From Pseudomonadota bacterium (lineage in GTDB: Bacteria; Pseudomonadota; Gammaproteobacteria; Acidiferrobacterales; Acidiferrobacteraceae): a stretch of 15,162 nucleotides of DNA. The DNA is taken from positions 1-15,162 of the forward strand of contig JAJZZU010000019.1 in NCBI GenBank assembly GCA_021797365.1. The letters run 5' to 3'. A program made the position numbers and the translations under genes. Shown in pieces: positions 1 to 14,975 of this stretch (position 1 is the first letter of the stretch; each line of letters begins with the position of its first letter). A model generated the notes under the pieces. It worked only from the letters and a program-made list of their open reading frames with translations, made no database searches and was not told where the DNA came from.

Positions 1-217
1 TATCGACCGCCCTCGCATTCGGTCGCCCGGAACTCGAGCGCGCATCCCTCCACTTCCTCGTAATCGTCGTATAGGAGCGGCATATCGGGCGCATCATCCC
101 AAAGCGTTCCATTGGCAAAGCGCGCCTCGGCTTTCGCGCAGGCCTCTTCTTCGGAGTCCGCCTCGACTCCGACGCGGCAGATGTGCTCGTAGGGGAGTAC
201 TCAACCAGATATTTCAT
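1..217 (-). pseudogene. 5' part of a small acidic hypothetical protein, apparently frameshifted, truncated by window edge
   Basis: On the minus strand an ATG at 217 lies 8 nt after a GGAGG ribosome site (226-230) and begins MKYLVEYS. After the C4 run at 192-195 (G4 on the plus strand) this frame turns into a basic, low-quality sequence. A second frame entered at the same point continues smoothly as YEHICRVGVEADSEEEA and then an acidic stretch containing GTLWDD and MPLLYDDYEE, open to the window edge. Adding one C to the run joins the two frames into a single plausible protein. The acidic pattern is like that of small hypothetical proteins found on phages and mobile elements, though I cannot name the family. 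It is either a frameshifted gene, a slippage site, or a sequencing error in a homopolymer. It is divergent from the gene starting near 318. Confidence 0.55.
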
Positions 218-272
218 CAGGGGTGCCTCCGGCATGAGGGAGTCGCGCCACGCATTGCGCGGCTCGATGGCG

Positions 273-281
273 TGGTATAGT
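273..281 (+). promoter_or_regulatory. Extended -10 promoter candidate for the DsbC-like gene
   Basis: TGGTATAGT at 273-281 fits an extended -10 element (TGn followed by TATAGT). A TTGCGC at 255-260 could be a weak -35 with 15-nt spacing. Transcription would begin near 288, about 30 nt before the GTG at 318. That supports GTG 318 over the in-frame ATGs at 183, 234 and 267, which lie upstream of this start point. Confidence 0.35.
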
Positions 282-317
282 ATAACAAATAGCACACAGA
301 CACAGGGCAAACACCTC

Positions 318-1379
318 GTGTACGTCGACCGCATAAAGGATTATCCGCGTTCCCGCCTGACCACCCGTAACGAGTCCGGCCGGGCGCGAGGCACCGTCCG
401 TATCGCTATCTATGCGCTGGCCGCGAGTCTCCCAGCGGCTTCCGCCATCGGCTTTTGCGCGGCGCTGGGCGTACTCGCGGCGCAGTCGCTTGCCGTGCGC
501 GATCCTTCACAAGGGCCTCTTGCGCCGCGAGCCGTCGCCGCACTGGTTCACGAGGCGAGCCGCGGCCGCGCCCGGTTCGCGGGCACCTTGACCGGCACCT
601 TCGCGCGGCTTCATGACGGCGCCGTGCCCGGGGGATGGACACCGGTGCGCGTCAGGGCCGCCGCGGGGCCGGAGGGGCCCGGCACGGTCGCGTGGGCCTC
701 CCCCCATGGCCGCTATCTCTTCATCGGTGCCGTCATAAACCGGCAGGGCGTCAACGTGACGCGCCGGCTGGCGCAGGCGGCGCACATGCTGCCGGCGGCA
801 CAGGGCGGCCAGACGGCGGCAGCGGCGCAGGGCGCGTCCCCCGGCAGTCTCCCGGCGCCGGTGGCCGTCCTGAGCCACCAGGCCTTTTGGCAAGCCACCC
901 GGACGGCTACGACCGGGATCCGGCAGTACCAGGTGGGCGCCCGTCATACGCTGTATGTCTATTTCGATCCGGACTGCATCTTTTGCCATCACCTCTACGA
1001 CCGTCTGCACGCCGACCGCGCGCTTTTGAAGGCCCGTCATGTGCGCGTCGACTGGATCCCGGTGGCGATCCTGCACCCGGGGTCCGCGGCGCGCGCGGAT
1101 GCGATCCTTGCGGGAGGACGCAAGGTGCTGGTCGCCAACGAGACGCACTTCGATGTGGCGAAAGAGCGGGGTGGGGCGCCCCGTCGCGTGAGCCCCAAGG
1201 AGACGGCCAGGCTCATCGCCAACATGAAAGTCTTTCTGCACGGCGGCGCCGATCTGGGCACGCCGACGTTGTCCTGGCGGTCCGCCGGCGGGCACGCCCA
1301 TTACCTGGTCGGCCTGCCGAACAAGACCGGCCTTTCGTCCATTATCCGGTCCTTCGGGCCGGTCATTGCGCAACACTAA
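318..1379 (+). CDS. Membrane-anchored DsbC/DsbG-like thiol-disulfide isomerase
   Basis: A 353-residue protein if started at GTG 318. A hydrophobic segment (roughly residues 25-52, IYALAASLP to GVLAAQ) would act as an uncleaved signal-anchor placing the rest in the periplasm. The C-terminal half is thioredoxin-like: LYVYFDPDC followed by the active-site motif CIFC (codons 975-986, residues 220-223), then a helix, and near the end LGTPTLSW, whose Thr-Pro is the cis-proline loop typical of DsbC, DsbG and conjugative TraF/TrbB proteins. By family knowledge it shuffles or reduces disulfides in secreted proteins. The N-terminal half (about residues 60-200) resembles the DsbC dimerisation region only loosely. 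Such genes are common in conjugative elements, where they assist pilus or secretion proteins, but no transfer gene is visible here. The start is uncertain: ATGs at 183, 234 and 267 are in frame, while 318 fits the promoter. Confidence 0.75.
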   Translation: MYVDRIKDYPRSRLTTRNESGRARGTVRIAIYALAASLPAASAIGFCAALGVLAAQSLAVRDPSQGPLAPRAVAALVHEASRGRARFAGTLTGTFARLHDGAVPGGWTPVRVRAAAGPEGPGTVAWASPHGRYLFIGAVINRQGVNVTRRLAQAAHMLPAAQGGQTAAAAQGASPGSLPAPVAVLSHQAFWQATRTATTGIRQYQVGARHTLYVYFDPDCIFCHHLYDRLHADRALLKARHVRVDWIPVAILHPGSAARADAILAGGRKVLVANETHFDVAKERGGAPRRVSPKETARLIANMKVFLHGGADLGTPTLSWRSAGGHAHYLVGLPNKTGLSSIIRSFGPVIAQH

Positions 1380-1396
1380 CGTGCCAGAGGCACAGG

Positions 1397-1403
1397 AAGG
1401 AGG
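1397..1403 (+). promoter_or_regulatory. Perfect Shine-Dalgarno site
   Basis: AAGGAGG lies 4 nt before the ATG at 1408. It decides the start of the 420-residue gene: the frame is also open upstream, to 1366, but that upstream start would overlap the DsbC-like gene. Confidence 0.7.
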
Positions 1404-1407
1404 ATGT

Positions 1408-2670
1408 ATGAGTGAAGCTACGAAGAGCCGCCCCGCGTTCCTGCAGGCGAAAAAGCCGGGCGGGGCCGGCGGTACGCAATACAACATCGTCGCCGAAGTC
1501 GTGTCGGTGAACCCCGAGACGCAGGAGCTCATCTGCCGTCTGCCCGGCGATGCGCGCACGTTCGCCGTGGGCGTCTTCAAGAAGAGCGCCGAGCGGCCGG
1601 TCCAGAAAAAGGCGGTCTGGGAAGGCAACCACATCGACGAGCGCGCGGCCGAGCGGCTGAATCCCATGACGGTCATGGCCGACGGCAAGGAGCAGAAGGT
1701 CCATCAACGCGTCATTCTCGAGCACGCGGTCGTGTTCGGCAAACCGGAAAACGGCACGGCCGCCGCCCGCGACGCGCTGCTGAACGAGTTCCTGAACAAG
1801 AAGAACCCGAAGCTCTTCGCCAACTGGATCCATGCGGCGACGTCCAATCCCGACAAGGTCCGTCAGGGCTTTGTGACGGTCGCGGGGTTTAAGAACGAGG
1901 TGCAGCGGGTGATCGTCTGGGACGGTGCGCCGGTGGCCGCCGACGACAAGGCGGCCATGGCGGCGCTTGCCGCCCGCATCGCCAAACAGAACGTGTCGCT
2001 CAAGGAAGGCGAGAAGCGTCCGGTGAAGCCGCAGGTGGCCGTCACCGTGCGCGCGGTCGGCGAAAACGGCGAGATCATCGGCGTGGGCCCGGTCGTCTCC
2101 TACAACGGGGAGGCCAAGCGCCCCTTGAATAGTGAGGACCTGGCCGCCTATGTCGGGGCGTTCAAGGAGGACTTCCCGAACGCAGCCCTGGATGTACTCG
2201 TGGGGGATGCCTATCCCGCCAGCCAAAAGGGCGTCCAGGGGCTTACGCTGAAGACCGGCGAGGAGGGTACGCGCGAGGCGAACAGCCGCGCCATGTACTA
2301 CCTGCACGGCCTGCTGCGCGATACCCGGGATCCGGAAAACGGCGCGTATACCGGCATGATCGGCACGCACGCGGTCGTCGAGTTTTCGCCCGGCAAGCCG
2401 GACCCACGCCTGCCGAATGTCATGAAGGGCGCGGAGCATGACTGGGTGACGAGCGTCTTCTTGAGCCGCCAGGAAGACCTGCTGACGGCCATTCCGGGCC
2501 GCGACGGCAAGCCGCTGCATATGCCCGAGTACCTGGTCCGCGAGGACTATCAGCCGGAGCCCCACGCAAGCGAGGCGGGGGAGGGCGAGGATCCCGTGCC
2601 CCGCGCAAGTGGGGATGAAAGGAAGGAGGAGGATGACGACGACAGCCCGTTCGCGGGACTGGGTGGCTGA
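1408..2670 (+). CDS. Hypothetical protein (420 aa) with acidic SSB-like C-terminal tail
   Basis: Begins MSEATKSRPAF at the ATG directed by AAGGAGG. I do not recognise the family. The protein is soluble, with no signal peptide or membrane segment. Residues about 20-60 look like a small beta-rich domain (YNIVAEVVSVNP, ELICRLPGD). The middle is alpha/beta, containing VAVTVRAVGENGEIIGVGPVVSYNG. The last 30 residues are a disordered acidic tail rich in Glu and Asp, ending DDDDSPFAGLGG. That resembles the DDDIPF tip by which single-stranded DNA-binding proteins recruit partners, but here extra residues follow the Phe. A DNA-processing role for a mobile element is only an inference. It starts 29 nt after the DsbC-like gene, so the two are probably co-transcribed and end at the terminator at 2722. 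The tail coding region contains a CRISPR-repeat-like unit. Confidence 0.8.
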   Translation: MSEATKSRPAFLQAKKPGGAGGTQYNIVAEVVSVNPETQELICRLPGDARTFAVGVFKKSAERPVQKKAVWEGNHIDERAAERLNPMTVMADGKEQKVHQRVILEHAVVFGKPENGTAAARDALLNEFLNKKNPKLFANWIHAATSNPDKVRQGFVTVAGFKNEVQRVIVWDGAPVAADDKAAMAALAARIAKQNVSLKEGEKRPVKPQVAVTVRAVGENGEIIGVGPVVSYNGEAKRPLNSEDLAAYVGAFKEDFPNAALDVLVGDAYPASQKGVQGLTLKTGEEGTREANSRAMYYLHGLLRDTRDPENGAYTGMIGTHAVVEFSPGKPDPRLPNVMKGAEHDWVTSVFLSRQEDLLTAIPGRDGKPLHMPEYLVREDYQPEPHASEAGEGEDPVPRASGDERKEEDDDDSPFAGLGG

Positions 2671-2703
2671 TCGGGGTTAGCCCGCGCAAACGGGGATGAA
2701 AGG
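2597..2703 (+). repeat. Two imperfect CRISPR-repeat-like direct repeats
   Basis: Two 24-nt units at 2599-2622 and 2680-2703, 81 nt apart, match at about 21 positions. Each has a short dyad (CCCC/GGGG in the first, CCCG/CGGG in the second) followed by ATGAAAGG. From memory both resemble the type I-E CRISPR repeat core (CCCCGCGC-AAGCGGGG-ATGAA). The first lies inside the 3' end of the 420-residue gene and the second just after its stop codon. The spacing does not fit the usual 61-nt period, and there is no third copy or cas gene, so this is not called an array. Confidence 0.5.
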
Positions 2704-2721
2704 GGTACGGATGGAGGGAAG

Positions 2722-2745
2722 AGGGGGGCTTAGCCCCCCTTTTTT
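2722..2745 (+). terminator. Strong rho-independent terminator
   Basis: An 8-bp stem AGGGGGGC/GCCCCCCT (2722-2729 and 2733-2740) with a TTA loop is followed by a T tract ending at 2745. It ends the transcript covering the DsbC-like and 420-residue genes and separates them from the gene at 2818. Confidence 0.9.
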
Positions 2746-2817
2746 ATGGTGCGGCTTCGCACCGCGCCCGGAATCCGTATCGTAGGGGCATCGGAGGGAT
2801 AGGGAGAGCTTTTTGCT

Positions 2818-3249
2818 ATGGGGGATTCAGAGACAGCTCGGCTGCCGGCGAGCGCTGCGATAGCCGTGCTGTTCCAGGCGGCGCGCGACATGGCCATCGC
2901 GCCCGATCCGGAGATCGATGACAGCCAGCCGCGCCGGCGCCTGGCCGGGGCCTATCTCCGCTACCGGCGATCCGTCGCCAACCGGATCTCTGCCATGCTC
3001 TGGATGGCGGGGCTCTGGGAAGGCGGCGTATCCGTGCACGAATCGATCGATGCCATTCGCCACACCACGGCGGATGAAGGTGACCCCGCCATCATGACAC
3101 CGCTTGTGTGGGCTGTATCGCTGCTGGCCGCGGATGACCGCGGCGACCTCCCCGGTATCGCCGCGGGGCTCAACATGGTGGACGGTTCGCCGTCGCCACC
3201 CCGCGCCGCTTGCCGGCCCGGTCTCGATGATGACCGATTCCGCCGCTAG
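2818..3249 (+). CDS. Hypothetical protein (143 aa)
   Basis: Starts at ATG 2818 with AGGGAGAG at 2801-2808 as a plausible ribosome site. The protein is mostly alpha-helical by eye (SAAIAVLFQAARDMAI, RRRLAGAYLRYRRSVANRI, WMAGLWEGGVSVHESIDAI). Its last 25 or so residues are Pro- and Arg-rich and look unstructured. No family is recognised. Its 3' end overlaps the start of the EAL-like gene by 23 nt, so the two are likely translationally coupled and may act together. A shorter reading, with the last residues being only overlap with the next gene, cannot be excluded. No transmembrane segment or catalytic motif is evident. Confidence 0.6.
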   Translation: MGDSETARLPASAAIAVLFQAARDMAIAPDPEIDDSQPRRRLAGAYLRYRRSVANRISAMLWMAGLWEGGVSVHESIDAIRHTTADEGDPAIMTPLVWAVSLLAADDRGDLPGIAAGLNMVDGSPSPPRAACRPGLDDDRFRR

Positions 3250-3922
3250 GGCGCCGTCTCTGTCGCTGCCGCGGGCCTACGCGCTGTCGGCGATCGTGCC
3301 GGCCGAGAACCGCCCGCGGCCCGGTGGCGGCGCCCTGGAGGAGGCCGAATTCTCCTGGCGCCGGCGGGTACGGGATGACTGGATTTTCGACTCCACCCTG
3401 CAGGAGCGCCTGGCCGGCGTGGTCGCGAACGCGGTGGCGCTGGACGTGCGGCAAGTGACGATCCGGCTCACTACCGCCCAGATCCTGGATCGCCGGGCTT
3501 CGCGTTTCGTGTCCCTGGCCGCCCGGCTGCCGGTGGAAATCAGCTGGATGGGCCCCGATGGCGATGGCGACCGCGCCGCGCGCGTGGCGAAGGCCTTGCG
3601 CCTCTGGCGTGCCTACGGCATCCGGTCCTGTATCGAAGCGCCTGGGGCTGCTGCCGGCCCCGCGACGCTGGCTCTGGCGGTCCGGGCGAAATCGGACCGC
3701 GTGCGGATCGTGCTGCGGGGCGCGCAGTGGCACGCAGGCTCTCCTGAGCGCACCCCTCTGTCCCGCTTCTTCCGCACCTGCCGCAAATCGGGACTCGCGG
3801 TGGTAGCCAGCGGCGTCGACACACGTGAGGCTTTGGCGGCCGCCGTCGCGCTTGGCGCCACTCATACCCAGGGACGCCTCTGGCGGGACTTGGGTTACGA
3901 GATCACCGGCATCGCGCCGTGA
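3227..3922 (+). CDS. Degenerate EAL-domain-like protein, probably catalytically inactive
   Basis: A 231-residue protein starting MMTDS at 3227 (3230 is equally possible), overlapping the previous gene by 23 nt. The C-terminal part LAVVASGVDTREALAAAVALG...TQGRLW (about residues 190-219) follows the EAL-family pattern of an AEGVET-like strand, a helix, and a QGYLF-like strand. Earlier pieces also line up: VTIRLTTAQILD for the usual VNLS...QL segment, LPVEISWM for the ELTE segment, YGIRSCIEAPG for GV..ALDDFG, and VRIVLRG for LKID. At these places the metal-binding and catalytic residues (the Asn, the Glu of ELTE, the DD pair, the Lys) are replaced, so cyclic-di-GMP hydrolysis is not expected. 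Known dead EAL proteins act by binding ligands or proteins; that is inference for this one. The fold assignment rests on eye alignment. Confidence 0.6.
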   Translation: MMTDSAARAPSLSLPRAYALSAIVPAENRPRPGGGALEEAEFSWRRRVRDDWIFDSTLQERLAGVVANAVALDVRQVTIRLTTAQILDRRASRFVSLAARLPVEISWMGPDGDGDRAARVAKALRLWRAYGIRSCIEAPGAAAGPATLALAVRAKSDRVRIVLRGAQWHAGSPERTPLSRFFRTCRKSGLAVVASGVDTREALAAAVALGATHTQGRLWRDLGYEITGIAP

Positions 3923-3993
3923 TCGCATGGAAGTCCATTTTCTGGGCAATCAATCCTGATTCTCTTCGCCCCGAGGTTGCCTTCGTTTTGGGC

Positions 3994-4014
3994 AGGACGC
4001 CATTTTGGCGTCCT
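3994..4014. repeat. Perfect 9-bp inverted repeat (hairpin)
   Basis: AGGACGCCA and TGGCGTCCT are separated by TTT. It lies 71 nt after the EAL-like stop codon and could act as a terminator or RNA-stabilising hairpin, but no clear T tract follows on either strand. Confidence 0.6.
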
Positions 4015-4031
4015 TGCGTAGATTGCCGAGC

Positions 4032-4066
4032 TTATCCCCAGATCTATCCCCAAAATCTGTGGATAA
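4032..4066. promoter_or_regulatory. Cluster of DnaA-box-like sequences, possible replication origin element
   Basis: TGTGGATAA at 4058-4066 is the exact complement of the DnaA box TTATCCACA. TTATCCCCA (4032-4040) and CTATCCCCA (4044-4052) are near matches on the other strand. The outer two form an inverted pair with 12-nt arms differing at one position. Clusters like this occur in plasmid and chromosomal origins. No replication initiator gene or set of iterons is visible nearby, so an origin is only suggested. Confidence 0.45.
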
Positions 4067-4097
4067 AGCGAAATGCCAGGGCGTGGAACATGAAGTA

Positions 4098-4145
4098 GGT
4101 CTTCAGGCTTTCGTGTGGGCAAGGGGGGTATTGGGCTTGCGTAAG
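4098..4145 (+). repeat. Left copy of 48-bp direct repeat flanking the ATPase module
   Basis: Matches 7119-7165 at all but three substitutions and one G insertion. Both copies run the same way and end GGGCTTGCGTAAG. The pair encloses the two-gene module with its flanks. It may be a duplicated attachment or recombination site, or a dispersed genomic repeat; no integrase or transposase is present in between. Confidence 0.85.
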
Positions 4146-4490
4146 GCGCCCCGCAAGTAAGTAGGACGCCCCGCGCGATATCGAACTGTGCCAAATCTCT
4201 CGGGATTACAGGCGTTGTGGCGAGTCACGCGCGGTAATGGTCCAAAAAAGCCTCGGGCGATGCGCCGCTTAAGCGAGATGCTGGTGCGCATAGGGTGGCC
4301 GATAAACTGCCCTAAGTGTGAGGCCGTGCCCCCCGACCTGCCCCCAATAACAGTCGCTGTGCACCAAGGAGAGCGAAGTGGGGGCACGTAGTATCGGAAT
4401 GTCACTCAATACCGCATCGCAATTCTCTTTCATTGCGGGAAGCTTGACCTCTATTCAGCGGAGTGCCCGTCATGAGGCTTTTGTGGGCTA

Positions 4491-4538
4491 CCGACACAAA
4501 ACCCGGAAAAGCCACTTCATCTACCGGATTCGTGTCGG
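4491..4538. repeat. Imperfect inverted repeat
   Basis: CCGACACAAAACCCGG (4491-4506) faces CCGGATTCGTGTCGG (4524-4538), with 17 nt between. The outer CCGACAC/GTGTCGG and inner CCGG arms are perfect, with one mismatch-plus-gap region between them. It could be a relic of an insertion-sequence end pair, an RNA hairpin or a protein-binding site. It sits about 110 nt beyond the ATPase gene stop codon. Confidence 0.5.
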
Positions 4539-4645
4539 GCTAAAAACCAGATAAGTGCGTTTTGCGTAGACAACAAACTGTGGCCACTAGATCGGTTAGA
4601 AATCCCCCACCGACGTGTGGGTAGAGAGACCCCGTCTGTCGGCAC

Positions 4646-6154
4646 TTACATCCAAATGGCCTGATAGACAACATCCCGGATGGTCCGAATTTTCGCGACA
4701 CCTATGTAGCTGATGTCGTCAAGCTCCAAATCGGAACTATTCGCCACTTGTCCAACTGTCATTTTTCCCGCCCCTTTGAGGCGCTCAATGACATTGGGGG
4801 TAAGGCCATATGGGTACGCCATTGACCGTCCGAGATCATCTATTGGCCTGTCCAATATGGCAAGGCCCTGTTTTTCGGGCAGTTCAGGAAGTTTGATATT
4901 CTTAAATGTAGGTCCCGTAACATGAATCTCAGCTGGCTCGGCGGAACCCGCCGTCCATTCGTCAATCATCTCTTGCGTTAGTCTCTTGGTTGGTACTGAG
5001 TCCAGAAGATTGCACAAGTTAACCGCAAAAATCGGGCCGCGTCCTCCAGATTTCAATGCACGAGATGCTTCCCGTCGCGCTACAAAACCTAAATATTCCA
5101 ATATCTCAAATATTTTCATATATTTATTAACAAGCTGCCGATGTATCAGCACACTATCTTGGGCGATAGTGCGCGTTTTTTCTTTCACCGACCTTGATGC
5201 ATGCTCAACTATTGCCTCAACGACTTCGCGTGCTGGCTCAATTAATTCCTCGTAGATCCCAAGCTTCGGGGCGACTTCCTCCATCAACGGCCAGAAATAA
5301 TCCGTAGCCATAGCAAGGAGACACTTTGTTAGCTCCGGAATACCGACACGATCCATGTCCTCAAACCTGTTGCAGGCGAGAATAAAGCCGCGAAGATTTC
5401 CTACAACAGCGCGCCCGAGCAAATTAGCGAATTGTTTTGGCGATAATCTATCGGAGAACGTTGAGCGCATCGCCAGTTTTGGATAGCGCGCTTGCAGGAC
5501 ATCGGGAAAAAAATCAGGAAAAGATGAAACATCCAATCGACTTATATCTATCACAGTGGAATCATTGAAAACATCAAACCTAATGCCAAACTTTGTAACG
5601 CCAGGATATATTGATGCCTTACACGATATTGCACTACTAGACAGTGTGCGAAACAGATCGAAAAATACCTCGAGCGGTTTTTCGCGCCCGATATGCGCTG
5701 CGTCATCAAAGAGAAAAACGAGTCGCATGTTAAGGGATCGCGACAACTCTGTAAGTTGGAGCTGAAGTGAGACTTGGTCGGACACATTTTCAAAGTCAAC
5801 GGATAATTTGCGCATACTCAGCTCCGTCTGAATAGCGTTAGAAAGTAACGTACAGAAGTGACCGATATACTCCTGCCCATCAGATTGCAACAAGGGCAGA
5901 TAACGCAAACTAACGTACACGGGGAATATGCCTCGCGTAAGTCGTAACCTTCGTCGAGTCTCAAGCAACAGGGCACTCTTCCCGCTGCCCCGTCCACCAC
6001 GCAACAACACAGGGCCGTGCGCACTCAATTTGCGAACAATGACTTCGTCGTGAGAGGAAAAGCTGTGATATTGGCCGAATTTTTCCGGAGGGCATTCTTC
6101 TGCCGCCAAGATCAGGCCTGAGTCCGAATCAGCATTATTCGTAGAGGTATTCAA
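4646..6154 (-). CDS. ORC/Cdc6-like P-loop ATPase with C-terminal helix-hairpin-helix region
   Basis: A 502-residue protein if started at the TTG (6152-6154), which overlaps the upstream stop codon as TTGA and has AGGAAG about 8 nt before it. Residues about 24-40 (PPEKFGQYHSFSSHDEV) are followed by Walker A GGRGSGKS (53-60) and Walker B LVFLFDD (145-151). This is the layout of the bacterial P-loop ATPases annotated as Sll1717 or ORC-CDC6 family. Residues about 160-390 are helical. The last 55 residues (GLTPNVIERLKGAG..TVGQVANSS..ELDDISYIGVAKIRTI) look like a helix-hairpin-helix unit, suggesting DNA binding. A role as ATP-driven sensor or effector in defence is inferred from this architecture and the RM neighbourhood. 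The frame is open to 6334, but that region is coding for the upstream gene in another frame. Base use is AT-richer than in the neighbours. Confidence 0.75.
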   Translation of the reverse strand: MNTSTNNADSDSGLILAAEECPPEKFGQYHSFSSHDEVIVRKLSAHGPVLLRGGRGSGKSALLLETRRRLRLTRGIFPVYVSLRYLPLLQSDGQEYIGHFCTLLSNAIQTELSMRKLSVDFENVSDQVSLQLQLTELSRSLNMRLVFLFDDAAHIGREKPLEVFFDLFRTLSSSAISCKASIYPGVTKFGIRFDVFNDSTVIDISRLDVSSFPDFFPDVLQARYPKLAMRSTFSDRLSPKQFANLLGRAVVGNLRGFILACNRFEDMDRVGIPELTKCLLAMATDYFWPLMEEVAPKLGIYEELIEPAREVVEAIVEHASRSVKEKTRTIAQDSVLIHRQLVNKYMKIFEILEYLGFVARREASRALKSGGRGPIFAVNLCNLLDSVPTKRLTQEMIDEWTAGSAEPAEIHVTGPTFKNIKLPELPEKQGLAILDRPIDDLGRSMAYPYGLTPNVIERLKGAGKMTVGQVANSSDLELDDISYIGVAKIRTIRDVVYQAIWM

Positions 6155-6960
6155 GGTACAAGCTTCCTGAACAAAATGTAGTGTTCTAGAGCTTCGTCCG
6201 GCTTTAAGGAAGAGTAGGCCGTTGGTACAAAATGTGAGACTAGCCCTAGGCAACTGACAAGCACGAGTGTGTCTCGGATTGTCGACTTTACGGTCACTTC
6301 GTCGAAGAGTAGTGCACTCGTAAAAAATTCCCAATGTATCGCTTTCGAGAGTGTTGAATAGAGTTGAGCACTTCGCCCCTGCGTTTCCTTTATGTAGCGT
6401 TCCGGATCAAGTGACAATAACTCAGTATACATGGGGTCTGTTGACCCTGCCGGGCGTGCTGTTACGAAGTCAAGCATATTCTTCACGGCCGGTTTCCAGT
6501 ATATGTGCTCGAGATGCCTCGAAAATAGGGCCCTACTAATCTTCGGCATATCGTTCTCTATACTCCAGAGAGGCTGGGTAGGCTTATCATCCGGCATTAC
6601 GTCTCCGAACCAGCTGAAGGCGGAACGAGCGCGTTTTCCATGTTCATACTCAGGTTGAGCCTGGAACTCGCTTAGATAAAGCATTCGAAATGGGTCGAAA
6701 CGCCCAAGCATGGCCGCGCACGAATTTTCAAGGACAACGCGGGCACATAATGGCCCAAAGCTTTGAGCCTCAGTTGATGCAGCGCTCTCTATAAATCCCA
6801 TGGCCATTGTCGCAAAACGTTCAATAGACGAAGAAAGCTGGATTAAGGCAATCTTAGCCGTTCCTTGACAGTCATCGTTGCCGCATACCAGTCGTGCAAT
6901 ATGGCTCATTGTCGCTGATTGCTGCTCACATAGACGTTCTTCTATTCGCCTTTCGGTCAT
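6151..6960 (-). CDS. Hypothetical helical protein, partner of the ATPase
   Basis: A 269-residue protein from ATG 6960; a GTG at 7011 in the same frame would add 17 residues and lies directly behind GGAG. I do not recognise the family. It appears largely alpha-helical and soluble, with an N-terminal Cys-rich stretch (CEQQ, LVCGNDDC). It also has Trp/Phe-rich patches (SAFSWFGD, LEHIYWKP) and a conserved-looking YSTLSKAIHWEF near residues 210-221. The LSK.IH pattern recalls helical HEPN or Abi-type proteins where a late His sits in a helix, but no Arg is correctly spaced, so this is weak. Its stop TGA overlaps the TTG start of the ATPase gene, so the two products are probably made together and may form one system. 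The AT-richer composition suggests separate acquisition. Confidence 0.7.
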   Translation of the reverse strand: MTERRIEERLCEQQSATMSHIARLVCGNDDCQGTAKIALIQLSSSIERFATMAMGFIESAASTEAQSFGPLCARVVLENSCAAMLGRFDPFRMLYLSEFQAQPEYEHGKRARSAFSWFGDVMPDDKPTQPLWSIENDMPKISRALFSRHLEHIYWKPAVKNMLDFVTARPAGSTDPMYTELLSLDPERYIKETQGRSAQLYSTLSKAIHWEFFTSALLFDEVTVKSTIRDTLVLVSCLGLVSHFVPTAYSSLKPDEALEHYILFRKLVP

Positions 6961-7044
6961 GCAAACACGAGCGCCCCTGCATGTTAGAGAATGGTTGAGC
7001 CACGCGCGCACCTCCGCGACTCGTCATAGTAACTGAAGTCCCAA

Positions 7045-7072
7045 GGTATACGTCTGCGATTATTGTGTCCAA
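7045..7072 (-). promoter_or_regulatory. Candidate promoter of the ATPase module
   Basis: On the minus strand TTGGAC (7067-7072) and TATACC (7045-7050) are separated by 16 nt. Transcription would start near 7038, giving a leader of about 78 nt to ATG 6960. It lies inside the direct-repeat pair, so the module carries its own promoter. Confidence 0.4.
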
Positions 7073-7118
7073 GCACGGTACGGTGAAACTCTATACGGTC
7101 ACGTAGCTAATCTCAATG

Positions 7119-7165
7119 GGTCTCCAGGCTTTCGCGTGGGTAAGGGGGTATTGGGCTTGCGTAAG
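7119..7165 (+). repeat. Right copy of 48-bp direct repeat flanking the ATPase module
   Basis: The partner of 4098-4145, one nt shorter in the G run. It ends 19 nt from the hsdR stop codon (7185-7187), placing the junction of the module exactly at the 3' end of the RM operon. Confidence 0.85.
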
Positions 7166-7184: not shown

Positions 7185-10100
7185 TCAGGCCATTGCCCGA
7201 TGTGGTGCTGACCATCCGAACGACAGCGCTTCTGCTTGTTGCAACACTGTCTGCACCGCAGAATCTTGCAAATCCGGCGGATAACCATACTTTCGCAGGA
7301 TGCGTTTCACAAGAACGCGCATCCTTGCGCGTGCGGAATCGCGACGCGCCCAATCCACTGACACGTTCTCGCGTAGGCTTACCAGTAATTCATGCGCGAT
7401 GACTCGCAGCTTGTCATCGCCCATTACCTGCACGGCGCTTAAGTTTTCCGCCAGCGCATCGTAGAAGGCGATCTCCTCGTCGGATAACCCGGCCTCTTCG
7501 CCGCGCTGACGGGCCGCACGAATGTCCTTGGCCAGTTGAATCAGCTCTTCCAATACCTCGGCGGTGGTGATGGCGTTGGCATGATAGCGTGCTACGGCGT
7601 CTTCCAGTCGTTCCGAGAAGGCCTTCGCCTGTACCACGTTAGTCTTGCTTCGCGAGCGTATGCTGTCGTTTATCAGCTTGCGTAACGCCTCCAGTGCGAG
7701 GTTTTTACGCTCCATTTGCTGAACTTCGGCGAGGAACTCGTCGGAGAGAATGGAGATATCCGGGCTTTTGATGCCGGCCGCTGCCAAGATGTCCACGATC
7801 TCGGTCGAGATAACCGCGCGACTGATGATCTGCTGGATTGCCAATTCACGCTCTTGCTGGGCGACCCCAGAACCGGTGCTACTCTTAACCAGCGCGGCAC
7901 GGATCGCCTGGAAGAAACCGACTTCCTCGCGGATTGCTTGGGCCTCATCGGAGGCGGATGCCAGGGCGAACGCCTTGGACAGAGCCAGCACGGCGTCCTG
8001 GTAACGGCGATGAGCATCCCTCTTGGCCTCCTTGGTCTTTTCTTTCGCCGCCAGTTTTTGTTGCAGGTCGAGAATCCACTCAATGGCTCCCGCCATCATT
8101 GCCAAGCGTTCTTGTGGCGTCCCGGTCAGCGCGGAGGCGTAGTCGAAGCCATGGTACATATCGCGCACGACCTCGTATTTCTCCATCATCATCGCGATGG
8201 CCTGCGCTTCGTCGACACCGGTGTTTTCCTGGTCGCTTTTTGAGTACTTCTGCAGAGCGGATTTTAGGTTCTGTGCGATGCCGATGTAATCGACGATCAG
8301 ACCGGCTGGCTTGTCGCGGAACACCCGATTCACACGCGCAATCGCCTGCATAAGGCTATGTCCTTTCATCGGCTTGTCCACGTACATCGTGTGTATGCAG
8401 GGCGCATCAAAACCGGTGAGCCACATATCGCGGACGATTATGAGCTTCAGAGGATCTTGGGGATTGCGGGCGCGCTTGGCCAGCAGATCGCGCCGGGTCT
8501 TGTTGCCGATGTGCTGCTGCCACTCCTGTGGATCGCTCGCGGCCCCCGTCATCACGATCTTGACCGAGCCCATGTTATCGTCGGCGTTGTGCCAGTCCGG
8601 GCGCAGCTTGATAATCTCGTCGTAGAGCTTCACACAAATGCGGCGGCTCATGCACACGACCATCGCTTTGCCATCGAGAGCCGCCACGCGATTCTCCAAG
8701 TGGGTGACAATGTCGTTGGCCACCAGTGCCAGGCGCTTGTCGCTGCCGACTAAGGCCTCGACCGTGGACCACTTTTCCTTGAAGCGCTCCTGATCAGCTT
8801 CGGAATCCTCCTCAGTTAGTTCGTCGACCAGGGCGTCGATATTCGGCTTCTCGTCCTCGTCCAGTTCAATGCGCGCCAGTCGCGATTCGTAGTAGATTGG
8901 CACGGTCGCACCATCCTCGACCGCACGGCTGATGTCGTAGACATCGATATAGTTGCCGAATACCGCCGGGGTGTTGACGTCATCGGCTTCGATGGGTGTA
9001 CCGGTAAAACCGATGAAGGATGCGTTCGGCAGGGCATCCCGCACGTACTTGGCGAAACCATAGGAAATTTCGCCGGTCTTCGCGTCCACTTTGGCCTTGA
9101 AGCCGTATTGACTGCGGTGGGCTTCATCCGCGATGACGACCACATTGCGCCGTGTGGTGAGTGGCTCCGTGATCTCACCAAACTTCTGCAAGGTCGTGAA
9201 AATCACGCCGCCGGATGCCCGGCCCAACATCTTCTGCAGATCTTCGCGGCTTTCGGCCTGCACCGGCGTCTGCCGAATCAGGTCGCGGCACATCGAGAAC
9301 GTCGAGAAGAGCTGGTCATCGAGGTCGTTCCGGTCGGTCAGCAGCACCAGTGTCGGGTTGGCCATTGCCGGGTGTTTGACCAGTAGTCCCGCGTAGAACG
9401 CCATCAGCAGGCTTTTGCCGGATCCCTGGGTGTGCCAGATGACCCCGACTCGTTGATTGCCCTCCGGCGAGGACGCAGTCACCGTGCTCTTGACGGCGTG
9501 TCGCACCGCGTGGAACTGGTGATAGCCTGCGATGATTTTGGCAAGCCCGGAACCGGTTTCGCCGAAGACCGTGAAGTGACAGAGCAGATCGAGTAGGCGG
9601 CGGTGCTCGAACACGCCCTCGATCAGTGTCGAGATTTCCGGGGCTCCCCTCGGTGCAACCGCCGTGCCGTCAGTGGTGCGCCAAGGCATGAAGCGCTCAA
9701 GGTCAGCGGAGAGCGACCCCACCCGTGCCGTGATACCGTCCGACGTCACCAGCAAGGCGTTGGTATTGAACAGCGCGGGAATCTGCTGCTTGTAGGTCTG
9801 CAATTGGTTGAACGCACCCAATAGATGCGCCCCGGCACTACCCGGTGCCTTCAGTTCGATCACGGCCAGCGGCAATCCGTTTACGAACACCACCAGGTCG
9901 GGTCGCCGGTTGTTCTGGCCGTTGATCACCGCGAATTGGCTCACTGCCAACCAATCGTTCTGCTCGGGATGCTCGAAGTCGATGAGCGCGATTTTGCCTG
10001 CAGTCAGCGTGCCGTCGTCGGCGTAGTACTCGACGTCCACGCCTTCCGTCATCAGCTTGTGGATGCGGCGGTTTTCTTCGAGCAGCGAGGGTAGCTCGGA

Positions 10101-10328
10101 CTGCATCACGCGTCGCACGGCATCTTGACGCGCCTCCAATGGCAGATTAGGATTCAGGCGCGTTACGGCGTCCTCAAACCGCTTCTTGAGCACGACCTCA
10201 TTGTGACTCTCGCGCTCCGGTCGGTGTCCGTCGGGGCCGATATCCTCCTCACGCTCGATGCTATAATCGAGCGCGCGCAGTTGATCCAGCGATGCGCTTT
10301 CGACTTCGGCCTCCGACAGAAACGCCAT
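7185..10328 (-). CDS. hsdR: Type I restriction endonuclease, R (motor and nuclease) subunit
   Basis: 1047 residues, the normal HsdR size. The N-terminal nuclease has [19 protein letters not shown] (Asp144, Glu158, Lys160) and a following QLQTYK (QxxxY) motif, matching the PD-(D/E)xK site of this family. The SF2 translocase has Walker A TQGSGKS (300-306), DEAH (401-404) and TGTP (442-445). A later [15 protein letters not shown] and QAIARVNR represent motifs V and VI. It joins HsdM2S to translocate and cut DNA lacking the host methylation. Its ATG shares one base with the stop of the Abi-like gene (TAATG), so it is translationally coupled. It appears intact and is the last gene of the operon. 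Confidence 0.97.
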
Positions 10329-11074
10329 TACGATTCTCCTTGTTCTTCGACGGGCTCCACAGTCGGGGCCGGTGCCCCGCGCGCAGCGTTCAACGCCTCC
10401 ACATAGGCGTCCCGATCCAGTTGGTAGAGCAGACGGCTCACTTCGATATTGATGGGTAGCTCATCACCGCCCGGCAGCAGGAAGCGCAAGGTCGGGGAGT
10501 CGCCATCCTCGGCGTCCACCGCCAGTCCCACATGCGCGTCGATTAGCGCGTTGTCCTGAGCAAACCGCTCCCACGGTTCGCGGGAACAGATTGGGTCGAG
10601 CTGCGCATCCAGATAGGCCTGATGTAGAAAGGTCACGATGGCATCGGCCGCCAGAACCGCACTGCGGCGGTGGTGTTCTGCCAACCGTTCCAGATACGGA
10701 TCTTTGCCGTGGCTCGCAGGGCCAGCCTTGTTGCGCAGATCATTCAGCGCCTCGGCCAGCTTGTGATGGCTGGATACCAGCTTCTTGAACCGGTCATCAC
10801 GCACGTCGCCCAACTTGAGGGCGCGAATTGCTGCGGTCAGCCAGTCTGATAGCGAGGGCGTCTCTTGCGTGGGCTTGAGCGGGGCTTTCTGGGTGTGGAA
10901 ACTCTCCACCACAACGCGACACACCACCTCGACTACGGCCTTGGCGCAGTCGATGCATGCATCGTTGTTCTGATCCAGATTGCGCTCCATCGCCTCGAGG
11001 GTTTGCTGCAACATCGGCGCGTCACGCCAATACCCGCAGGCCTCGCGGATGCCAGGGCACCAATCCAAGGTCAT
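10328..11074 (-). CDS. Abi_C-like (abortive infection C-terminal family) protein inside the RM operon
   Basis: 248 residues. The middle matches the abortive-infection C-terminal (Abi_C) pattern: [14 protein letters not shown], then [26 protein letters not shown] (about residues 103-128), then a helix [15 protein letters not shown]. The LRNK...SHG core is the conserved hallmark. The N-terminal 80 residues are helical ([29 protein letters not shown]). The C-terminal 70 are acidic ([16 protein letters not shown]) and may form a small beta domain. Genes of this type are sometimes found with type I RM systems and may be a backup that acts when restriction fails; that role is inferred. The start overlaps hsdS by ATGA and the end overlaps hsdR by TAATG, so it is built into the operon and likely made in step with HsdS and HsdR. 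Confidence 0.75.
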
Positions 11075-12388
11075 ACCGCCGCTCCGACGATACGCTCGGC
11101 ATCCGGAACGCGTAGTTCGCCGGAGATCAGCTTGGGCAGCAGTGTGTCGCGGAGCTGGGCGAGGGAGCGGGACTCACGTTCGTTTTCCGCCAGCTGTCGA
11201 TAAAGGGGGCCAGCCGACCTTGTGAAACTTGTCAGCACCGGGTCGGAAGGAACTACGACGCGAAGTGGTCGGAAATTGCTTTTGCTGATTTCCTGGAACG
11301 TCGAGCCGTTGGCGTTACCGACGATGGCATCCATGCTTTCCCTGCACCACGGCAGCACGAAGACATTTGGCAGAGCGCCATCACATTTCATCGCAATGAA
11401 GCCTTGGTTGATCGCTGTAGGAACTTCGGCAATCGCCAAATAGCCGATTGGCGCCCGTGAAGAGAGCAACACCGTGCCGACTGGCAAGAGGCCCGAACTG
11501 ATCTTTGCAAGGCCGGCATTCGTAATCTTTCGATCCGTGTCCAGCAAAACGGGAAACTTCAGGGCGGACAGGTCTTTGGGCGTTGCCCAGCAGTGTTGCC
11601 CACCTTCCCAAAATTCCGGTTCTTTTGTGCTGGGCGTAGACCCGCCGCAGACCGTCACTTCTTCGCCAATCGTCGAATGACGCCACCCCTCCGGAGTCTC
11701 CCCAAATTCTGATTCAACGAGTCGATCGGGGAAAAGGTCGTAGAAGTGCGCGGGTAGGCCGGGCAGGGATTGGCCGCGCCTCCAACGGCCTTCCATCTTG
11801 GCGCGTACGGGTTCGAAGTCCACGAACCAAGCCCTGAACAGGGTACGTGCCATCGCCTCCAGGGTTTCGTTCTGCCTGCGGTTGAGTTCGATTTTGTCGT
11901 CCAGCGTGCCGAGGATGTGAGCGATGGCGCGTTGTTCGGCTGGCGGTGGAATGGGAAATGGCAAACTCTTGAGCACATTCGTATCCAGCTTGCCGGCACC
12001 AATACCTGTATTCTCCACCTTCGACAGCAGCACTGTTTCATTGCCAGCTAACCAGTAGTACAAAAAATCCTCAACAAGATCGTCCTTCGCACGTAAGGCT
12101 TTTACATCTTGGTTAAAAGAAACGTCTCGTGACGCGATTCCAACAGGAATACGCTTGTGAAGTTCACTACCCCGTACCAACAGAAGCACATCACCTTTTC
12201 TTGCGAGCCTACTTCCTTTCTTCAAACCTTCAGGCGTGAGCGTCCTATCCGAATCTGCCAGACGTCCAGTTTTCATGGAACTGGCGCTTATCCAAGGAAT
12301 ACCACCACCCCAAAATGCGGGATTGCTTTTGGGAGGCGTTCCACCTGAAGACCAGTCGGTCACGTCACCGAGCGTGCGCTCCCGCCAC

Positions 12389-12399
<11 letters not shown>
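11071..12399 (-). CDS. hsdS: Type I restriction-modification specificity subunit
   Basis: 442 residues from ATG 12399, which has AAGGGG 7 nt upstream; an in-frame TTG at 12405 is less likely. Two target-recognition domains are visible: TRD1 starts [21 protein letters not shown] with [10 protein letters not shown], and TRD2 starts [19 protein letters not shown] with CWATPKDL. The central conserved region [24 protein letters not shown] links to a long helix ([15 protein letters not shown]). The C-terminal repeat is [20 protein letters not shown]. The two TRDs read the two halves of a bipartite target and bring HsdM and HsdR to it. The target sequence cannot be read from the protein. It overlaps hsdM by 11 nt and the Abi-like gene by 4 nt. 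It is full-length. Confidence 0.95.
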
Positions 12400-13939
<1,540 letters not shown>

Positions 13940-13977: not shown

Positions 13978-14694
13978 TCAATACACCCGCATCTTCATTA
14001 CCACGACCCCCACGATCGTCATCTCCTGGGTAACCGGGACAAGCGGATACCGCCGGTTCGCGGGTTTGAGGTATCGTTGATCATTCACCTCGATGATCAA
14101 TTGCTTAAATGTAGGCTCCGCCGAAGGTTTGCCGATCACGATGACGTAATCCCCGCCCTTGGGCACACGATCGGGATCGACAATGATCGTATCTCCCTCC
14201 CGGAAGGCTGGCTCCATGGCATCACCGCACACATGGAGCCCAAAGGTGCGTGATCCGAACGTGCCGACAACCGCCACATGCTCTAGCATTGTGATCGAGG
14301 AGTGGATGTCACTCGTTTCATGCCAATCTCTCACCTGGGCCCAGGTGAAGAGAGGGATTAAGGATGCTTTGGGGCTCGATCCTCGGTAAACATCTTGGTC
14401 AACGGTCGTTTGGTTGGATGATGTAAATGCGTCGCGCGCTGTCGTGGAAGCGTCCTTGGGTAATCGTTGTCCAGCTTCTAGTTCTTCGACCGACACGCCA
14501 CCTAGGCATTTCGCGAGCTTTGTCAAATTGGCGAGAGGCACTCCCCTCTGCTCCCAATGACGATATAGCTGCGGATTTTTAAGCTTAAGGACCTCTAAGG
14601 CGTATTCGCGCTTTGAGAGGTGACGACGTAGCCTTTCCGTCTCCAGAAAGCGAAACGCATTTGCCGACCCAGTTAGCTCCTTTGATTTGGCCAT
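13978..14694 (-). CDS. CI/LexA-like repressor with a defective S24 peptidase domain
   Basis: 238 residues. The N-terminal part (about 13-75) is a helix-turn-helix region: LRRHLSKREYALEVL.. NPQLYRHWEQRGVPLANLTKLAKCLGG. A linker of about 30 residues leads to an S24 domain (about 110-238). The usual G-D-S-M-E-P nucleophile motif reads CGDAMEP with Ala159 instead of Ser (codon GCC, one base from TCC). The site where relatives have W-V-Q-A-G-D-W reads WAQVRDW (118-124), so the Ala-Gly scissile pair is Val-Arg. The general-base Lys is kept (FKQL, Lys197), as is the rest of the fold. Self-cleavage, the way RecA inactivates such repressors in the SOS response, is therefore unlikely. It probably binds the operator at 14748-14770, repressing the divergent Cro-like gene and perhaps itself. 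No obvious ribosome site is seen before ATG 14694. Confidence 0.88.
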   Translation of the reverse strand: MAKSKELTGSANAFRFLETERLRRHLSKREYALEVLKLKNPQLYRHWEQRGVPLANLTKLAKCLGGVSVEELEAGQRLPKDASTTARDAFTSSNQTTVDQDVYRGSSPKASLIPLFTWAQVRDWHETSDIHSSITMLEHVAVVGTFGSRTFGLHVCGDAMEPAFREGDTIIVDPDRVPKGGDYVIVIGKPSAEPTFKQLIIEVNDQRYLKPANRRYPLVPVTQEMTIVGVVVMKMRVY

Positions 14695-14742: not shown

Positions 14743-14770
14743 TTGACAGTATAACCATGGTGGTTATACT
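14743..14770 (+). promoter_or_regulatory. Strong promoter of the Cro-like gene
   Basis: TTGACA (14743-14748), 16 nt, TATACT (14765-14770). Transcription should begin near 14777, one base from the ATG at 14778, so the mRNA is effectively leaderless. Confidence 0.75.
14748..14770. promoter_or_regulatory. Repressor operator, 9-bp inverted repeat
   Basis: AGTATAACC and GGTTATACT are perfect complements 5 nt apart. They cover the whole spacer and -10 of the Cro-like promoter, so a bound dimer would block RNA polymerase. The left arm read on the minus strand is also TATACT (14748-14753), a possible -10 for the repressor gene. A weaker half site AATAACC lies at about 14731-14737. Confidence 0.75.
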
Positions 14771-14777
14771 TAGGGCC

Positions 14778-14975
14778 ATGAATGGACTTCAAAAGGCAAT
14801 CGAGCATTTTGGCAGCCAAGCAGCGCTGGCGCGCGCCCTCGGTGTGGTTCCCATGGCAGTGTCGCATTGGAGCCATCGTGGAATACCAGTAGATAAGGCT
14901 ATTGCTATAGAACGCGCAACGCGAGGCGCTGTTACGCGGTCGCAACTTCGCCCCGATCTATTTGGCCATGATTAA
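14778..14975 (+). CDS. YdaS/Cro-like small DNA-binding protein
   Basis: 65 residues from ATG 14778: MNGLQKAIEHFGSQAALARAL, then GVVPMAVSHWSHRG (helix-turn-helix) and IPVDKAIAIERATRGAVTRSQLRPDLF. This is the standard pattern of the YdaS/Cro family of phage and mobile-element regulators, which oppose the CI-type repressor. It is divergent from the CI-like gene across an 83-bp control region with the shared operator. A longer reading starting at ATG 14757 would begin inside the promoter and is unlikely. AGGG sits only 2 nt before the ATG, too close for a normal ribosome site, and fits leaderless translation. Confidence 0.85.
   Translation: MNGLQKAIEHFGSQAALARALGVVPMAVSHWSHRGIPVDKAIAIERATRGAVTRSQLRPDLFGHD

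Follow-up and report, generated by a model that had tools for sequence, protein, structure and literature searches.

Two adjacent genes of a bacterium of the Acidiferrobacteraceae (Gammaproteobacteria), lying on the minus strand of positions 1 to 15,162 of contig JAJZZU010000019.1 (assembly GCA_021797365.1; this whole stretch of 15,162 nucleotides is hereafter the window), encode an ORC/Cdc6-type AAA+ ATPase and an all-helical partner protein with an invariant SKxxH. These two genes form a conserved adjacent unit, mostly overlapping and co-diverging, at every locus examined, and the unit occurs at unrelated genomic places. On balance, and with slightly more confidence than doubt, we read the pair as a compact, horizontally transferred defence-type module, in which the ATPase would be the sensor and the HEPN-like protein the effector. 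The helical gene comes first (6151..6909, -) and the ATPase gene second (4646..6154, -; 502 aa, TTG start), and the overlap at TTGA recorded in a first-pass annotation of this DNA is present, with the helical gene ending at 6151 and the ATPase frame starting at the TTG of 6154. Most aligned homologues of the helical protein begin at the residue of ATG 6909, so it is most likely 252 aa long; the close relatives P0003, P0004 and P0006 are predicted longer at the N-terminus. The pair has no family-specific model in PADLOC, Pfam, NCBIfam and PHROGs as scanned, and PHROGs gave no match for either protein of the window.

The helical gene was found directly upstream of the ATPase gene in 32 of the 32 other loci examined, mostly from Proteobacteria and Cyanobacteria with one Firmicute metagenome-assembled genome; the idea that the two genes never stand together elsewhere is therefore false. 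These loci comprise 28 from a genome contig scan (a lower bound, the scan having demanded one of two exact peptides), three from the family of locus L003 and one Escherichia coli chromosome. Among the 28, the genes overlap in 23 and are separated by 2-3 bases in five, as counted from the longest frames and with the start in L004 placed by hand. The distance matrices of the two proteins are closely correlated (Mantel r 0.942 over 18 loci including the window), and none of 2000 permutations reached this value. A fusion is suggested by one database protein, P0222, although it could be a frameshift product. Broken copies also occur, the helical gene being split over two frames in L008, L016 and L023 and the ATPase gene being split in L005.

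At least 1,067 ATPase homologues are present in the protein database (7,995 best candidates scored, 120 homologues listed). The Walker A motif GGRGSGKS (5975..5998, -) and the Walker B motif LVFLFDD (5702..5722, -) are present as first read; among the 120 homologues listed of the 1,067 found, the Walker A pattern is kept in 119, DDAAHIG in 117 and a Q[AS][IV]WM terminus in all 120. The best Foldseek matches of the structural model are ORC/Cdc6 proteins, the VIA fold comparison places ORC/Cdc6 level with other AAA+ ATPases, and the model also resembles the AAA+ ATPases of BrxC and Avs; the predicted structure has an AAA+ fold of the ORC/Cdc6/STAND type, in which both Walker motifs are intact and the tail is a helix-hairpin-helix. 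The earlier assignment as ORC/Cdc6-like holds at the level of the fold; by sequence, the window protein scores 13.1 bits with the Pfam ORC-CDC6-like family PF24389, below its cut-off of 27; this family matches 35 of the 35 aligned ATPase members at E up to 1, the best at E 1.4e-7. The C-terminal helix-hairpin-helix named in the same annotation (4646..4804, -, last residues QAIWM) is supported and is weakly like the C-terminal domain (CTD) of the RNA polymerase alpha chain, as indicated by a weak profile match to alpha chains among PDB sequences (best E 0.003) and by weak matches of PF03118 to 28 of the 35 members.

For the helical protein, 305 homologues were found in the protein database, 120 of which are listed. 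Its structural model is all-helical, with a predicted local distance difference test (pLDDT) score of 90.8, and the partner may adopt a HEPN-type fold, HEPN proteins taking the highest rows of the VIA fold comparison; these rows are suggestive, not decisive, and a family unlisted in the VIA tables is not excluded by its absence. A fold search against viral models gave no match. The motif YSxLSKxxH (6334..6360, -) is the candidate active site, as judged from its conservation among homologues: it is complete in 117 of the 120 listed (305 found), the remaining three deviate at the first Ser, and K189 and H192 are invariant in the 38 aligned members. The E. coli copy reads YSQSSKGVH. The Rx4-6H motif of HEPN proteins is not found, as an Arg stands 5-7 residues before H192 in only one of 38 members. 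Within the helix 46-71, all 38 aligned members have R57 and all but one have E61, which gives the order Rx3E as against the conserved acidic residue with a nearby basic one (Ex3[KR]) in helix 2 of HEPN proteins.

The pair is rare and patchy, and it is horizontally transferred between unrelated bacteria, moving as a unit. At E 1e-40 the ATPase was absent from all 368 other genomes of the class of genome G006 and all 288 of the class of G002, from 394 of 397 genomes of the family of G003, and, in the family of G004, from all but one of 197, the single positive genome having the coordinates of L006. Among 5,426 E. coli genomes, one was positive in DNA searches, by which divergent copies could be missed. 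The guanine-plus-cytosine (GC) content of the pair is more than 2 points under the rest of the locus in 26 of the 28 loci, with differences of up to 26 points; in the window the two genes have 48%, as compared to 59% in the adjoining restriction-modification (RM) operon and 67% in bases 1-4097, which bears out the AT-richness noted at first. The pair was not found in phages or IMG/VR, and plasmids held remote relatives only, in 3 and 5 of 72,556; the view that it is a phage or plasmid gene was dropped on these grounds.

The genomic places themselves differ widely. In E. coli KS-NP019 (L101) the left flank matches two other strains (L102, L103) at 99% identity up to base 10647, and about 83 bp of similarity to them resume at about 13386. 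The slot between (10648-13385), beside paoD, differs in gene content among the three strains, two of which have prophage genes close by; where KS-NP019 has the pair, L102 and L103 have a hypothetical and a lipase-family gene, and beyond the slot there is an RM pair in one of them and prophage tail genes in the other. In Azospirillum (L002), one relative has 0.8 kb in place of bases 9064-11676, and in another the flanks lie about 0.25 kb apart. In Vibrio (L024) the pair lies between attC-like repeats of about 120 bp on both sides, which we take to be VCR (Vibrio cholerae repeats); at least 40 matches are present in the genome (40 of 110 candidates scored), and the attC consensus was judged by eye. 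Housekeeping-looking neighbours, read by eye, stand at about a dozen loci; ribonucleotide reductase at L018 was confirmed by profile, and the other identities are presumed.

Defence-type genes adjoin the pair at some of these places. The neighbour profile scan covered the window operon and 14 hand-picked proteins from 11 of the 32 loci, the other neighbours being read by eye and no null control being included, and defence-type matches were obtained at five of the 11 loci: PDC-S60 at L006 (with DUF4062 below the cut-off), DndB at L008, HEC-01A at L020, Abi_C and AbiJ at L025, and an MmeI-like type IIG enzyme at L076. A neighbour at L014 gave a weak PLD/ZacB match. Among the neighbours scanned, neither PglZ nor another BREX component was recognised; where partner components of BREX (PglZ, BrxX) or RADAR (RdrB) are concerned, the one partial match was that type IIG enzyme, whose weak match to PglX models (E 4.6e-8) is far below its IIG score. 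A serine recombinase gene stands near upstream of the pair at L006 (8177-8839) and L008 (8192-8824), by Pfam, at L027 (8114-8686), by cluster, and at L076 (7621-8205), by eye, and an integrase gene lies near the pair at L019. The pair aside, no gene is common to more than three of the 28 loci, the serine recombinase being one such gene. Relatives of the HsdR, HsdM, HsdS and Abi_C proteins of the window were absent (E 1e-5) from the fetched flanks of the 28 loci, which extend up to 10 kb and are often shorter, and the idea that the two genes belong to the RM operon was dropped. The linkage to RM is local to the window.

The 48-bp direct repeats on both sides of the pair are real. The left copy (4098..4145, +, 48 bp) and the right copy (7119..7165, +, 47 bp) align with three mismatches and one indel, as first described, and a 22-mer common to both occurs exactly twice in the window, with 0 expected (200 shuffles, up to 3 mismatches). 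The right copy lies 19 bases from the stop codon of hsdR. Wide scattering of the repeat was not seen in the sets searched: it had no match in plasmids, its exact 22-mer was absent from viral contigs, and in the family of G006/L011 nothing beyond short pieces was met, in 17 genomes out of 199 (E up to 0.1). At the repeats, no Rfam family came near its gathering score and there was no tRNA, and folding of four strands gave z-scores from +0.3 to -1.7, none outstanding. A survey of 29 places (the 28 loci and the window), in which up to 1.5 kb per side were aligned, a score of 60 or more counted as strong and six flanks were under 1.2 kb, found a strong flanking direct repeat at four: the window, L004 (a 57-bp repeat that has a stem-loop), L020 (one of about 165 bp, in exactly two copies in its draft genome) and L024 (the attC-like site). 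The repeats of L003, L005, L007, L008 and L009 were only slightly over the best of 30 shuffles, and the three later loci of the family of L003 have no strong repeat. Control places in the same loci had a strong repeat in one of 124 cases (Fisher p 0.005 against 4 of 29), with the threshold set post hoc and with loci under 9 kb excluded, including L020 and L024, so that the integron array is unrepresented.

Since comparable repeats are lacking at 25 of the 29 places and the four strong ones are unrelated in sequence by eye, they appear to be products of several local recombination routes and not the module's own ends, as the bracketing had at first been understood. The window repeats would permit loss of the module by homologous recombination, and they may be integrase-type attachment sites used in trans. 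Two candidate empty sites were rejected. The RM locus of a Klebsiella plasmid was ruled out because its match begins at window base 7255, inside hsdR, and the Bradyrhizobium comparison met mostly a dispersed repeat, while five relatives aligned as expected on the downstream side only, so that it offers no clean empty site. The mobile defence cassette proposed in the first-pass annotation is accordingly partly supported: its observation was right and its mobile-cassette idea right in substance, as a mobile, defence-type two-gene unit that is paired throughout, foreign in GC, sporadic and sometimes beside defence genes, but the view that the 48-bp repeats define the cassette is not supported, and their role is local.

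In the defence reading, the partner would be an RNA-cutting (or RNA-binding) effector that its complex with the ATPase keeps inactive. The ATPase would oligomerise on nucleic acid through its helix-hairpin-helix tail and sense invader-associated DNA or transcription state, and an ATP-driven rearrangement would then release or activate the effector, whereby the infection aborts. Such a module would have no transposase of its own and would be carried by whatever vehicle captures it, in the window the RM island, where the 48-bp repeats may be a local scar or a recombination site at which the 3.0-kb unit could be lost or exchanged. A more specific version is possible, and we hold it only tentatively: a stand-alone two-gene immune system, in which an ORC-like ATPase would contact DNA or the transcription machinery by its alpha-CTD-like tail and would gate a ribonuclease of HEPN fold whose active-site signature, SKxxH without Arg, is new, and which would travel as a cargo of about 2.5-3 kb in integrons, in prophage slots, in RM islands and at bare intergenic sites.

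The constant pairing of the genes, with the putative effector gene first and a short overlap, would also suit a toxin-antitoxin-like addiction module, in which the helical protein is the toxin and the ATPase its neutraliser, and which is selected for keeping its carrier element, not for defence. The HEPN-like fold, as in HepT toxins, is suggestive in this respect, and one copy lies in the integron-type array of Vibrio, a setting in which toxin-antitoxin cassettes are common. However, addiction modules are frequent on plasmids and phages, and this pair has hardly any plasmid carriage (the few remote relatives given above) and was found in no phage; the ATPase is far larger than typical antitoxins, and broken copies exist. 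We regard the addiction module as unlikely. The pair could instead be a transposon-like element in itself, in which an ATPase like MuB/TnsC is joined by a helical accessory protein, with direct repeats of its own as bounds and an enzyme acting in trans to move it, but this is improbable, as the strong repeats at the four places are unrelated by eye, the other 25 places and the three later loci lack them, and no gene besides the pair recurs at more than three of the 28 loci.

A regulator of the host's own household has to be weighed as well: the ATPase would use its alpha-CTD-like tail to act on transcription or replication, with the helical protein as a subunit that binds a ligand or RNA. The weak alpha-CTD-like tail and the ORC fold would fit this role, and HEPN-fold proteins without the motif can bind RNA (PMC3710099), but a household gene does not fit with so patchy a distribution, with foreign GC or with insertion sites that are unrelated, and we think this role hardly probable.

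Distant relatives of the ATPase were found on plasmids. Three plasmid proteins (L098-L100) are 20-30% identical to the window or E. coli ATPase, score 91-147 bits with the ATPase profile and exceed the PF24389 cut-off, one only just, and each is adjoined by a small partner gene. Two of the three partners are mutually related (31% identity, E 2e-23) and both carry RHxxxH; one has a weak match to RiboL-PSP-HEPN (E 0.0012, under the cut-off) and the other has none in Pfam. The third partner, from Planktothrix, carries YRxLSxxVH, and its comparison with the helical family profile was insignificant, though the aligned stretch includes the LSxxVH motif; the helical profile finds none of the three at a meaningful score. 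Since two of the three distant ATPase relatives adjoin Rx4H proteins, the pairing of such an ATPase with a HEPN-like protein is apparently not confined to a single branch. The Planktothrix plasmid operon (L099, 2357-9043) encodes a PAPS-reductase-family protein, a small helical-looking protein, the ORC-CDC6-like ATPase, a DEAD helicase and a HATPase_c_3 protein, and is possibly a phosphorothioate-related defence operon.

As compared to known systems, the PF24389 family of these plasmid relatives shares the AAA+ core and the YPG motif with the window ATPase, together with a weak helix-hairpin-helix match at the tail, whereas the window protein is below its cut-off and the partners of two relatives carry Rx4H in place of SKxxH. 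The ATPases of BREX and BREX-related systems (BrxC/DUF499) differ in that the window tail is an alpha-CTD-like helix-hairpin-helix and that no BREX component was recognised among the scanned neighbours. Unlike the HEPN ribonucleases HepT/MntA and Csm6, the window partner lacks the Arg of Rx4-6H and is paired with an AAA+ ATPase, not with a nucleotidyltransferase or CARF protein. RADAR (RdrA-RdrB) differs because no deaminase is among the listed fold matches of the partner and the ATPase scores 9.9 bits against an RdrA cut-off of 600, and Avs because the window ATPase is much shorter than Avs3 (502 against 2,028 residues). Weak similarity in the P-loop region links 31 of 35 ATPase members to DS-41 (DS41_1; best E 1.6e-4) and 35 of 35 to the Sll1717-family P-loop ATPases (best E 1.9e-6), but the window ATPase scores 16.3 bits against a cut-off of 370 and 13.1 bits against a cut-off of 75, respectively. 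DS-41 is an anti-phage protein named by the DefensePredictor study (PMC13092281). Two further papers treat ORC/Cdc6 ATPases in a range of conflict systems, and fusions of HEPN to DUF499 ATPases and to DndF (PMC12839542, PMC10853773). Judged by titles and abstract openings, and in a collection with few subscription papers, no listed paper deals with an alpha-CTD-tailed ORC-like ATPase that has such a partner.

The surroundings of the pair in the window have features of their own. Two promoter-like sites 5' of the pair (7059..7116, -; 7116-7088 and 7087-7059) have 9/12 matches each, and the region holds seven such sites against 3.8 +/- 1.8 in shuffles, a number not clearly above chance, so the promoter of its own that had been ascribed to the pair is only suggested and not established. 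The type I RM operon (7185..13939, -; hsdM-hsdS-Abi_C gene-hsdR) was called by Pfam and NCBIfam for hsdR and hsdS, by Pfam for the Abi_C gene and by PADLOC for hsdM, hsdS and hsdR; the Abi_C-domain gene (10328-11074, -) sits between hsdS and hsdR within the operon. Parts of the operon (7255-13904), amounting to 27% of the window, share 84% identity with Klebsiella plasmid LR890742.1 (L080), a sign that mobility extends to the RM genes. The RM island has at its right edge a phage-like switch, formed by a divergent S24/cI-like repressor gene (13978-14694, -) and a phage-repressor-like helix-turn-helix gene (14757-14975, +). On the other side of the pair, an EAL-domain open reading frame (3104-3922, +) is barely over the Pfam cut-off (31.8 against 31.3 bits). 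Two 23-bp repeats at 2599-2622 and 2680-2703, 81 bases apart (chance expectation 0.01 matches), lie one inside the 3' end of an open reading frame and the other just beyond its stop, and they resemble what we take to be the consensus of type I-E CRISPR repeats.

If the defence reading is true, ORC/Cdc6-type ATPases, HEPN-type effectors and an RNA-polymerase-like tail would be joined in one minimal portable module, and the SKxxH would be an unusual candidate active site for a HEPN-fold protein. The module would also be a testable case of defence genes moving alone without a recombinase of their own, for which laboratory E. coli, since a copy of the pair is present in an E. coli genome, would be a natural test host.

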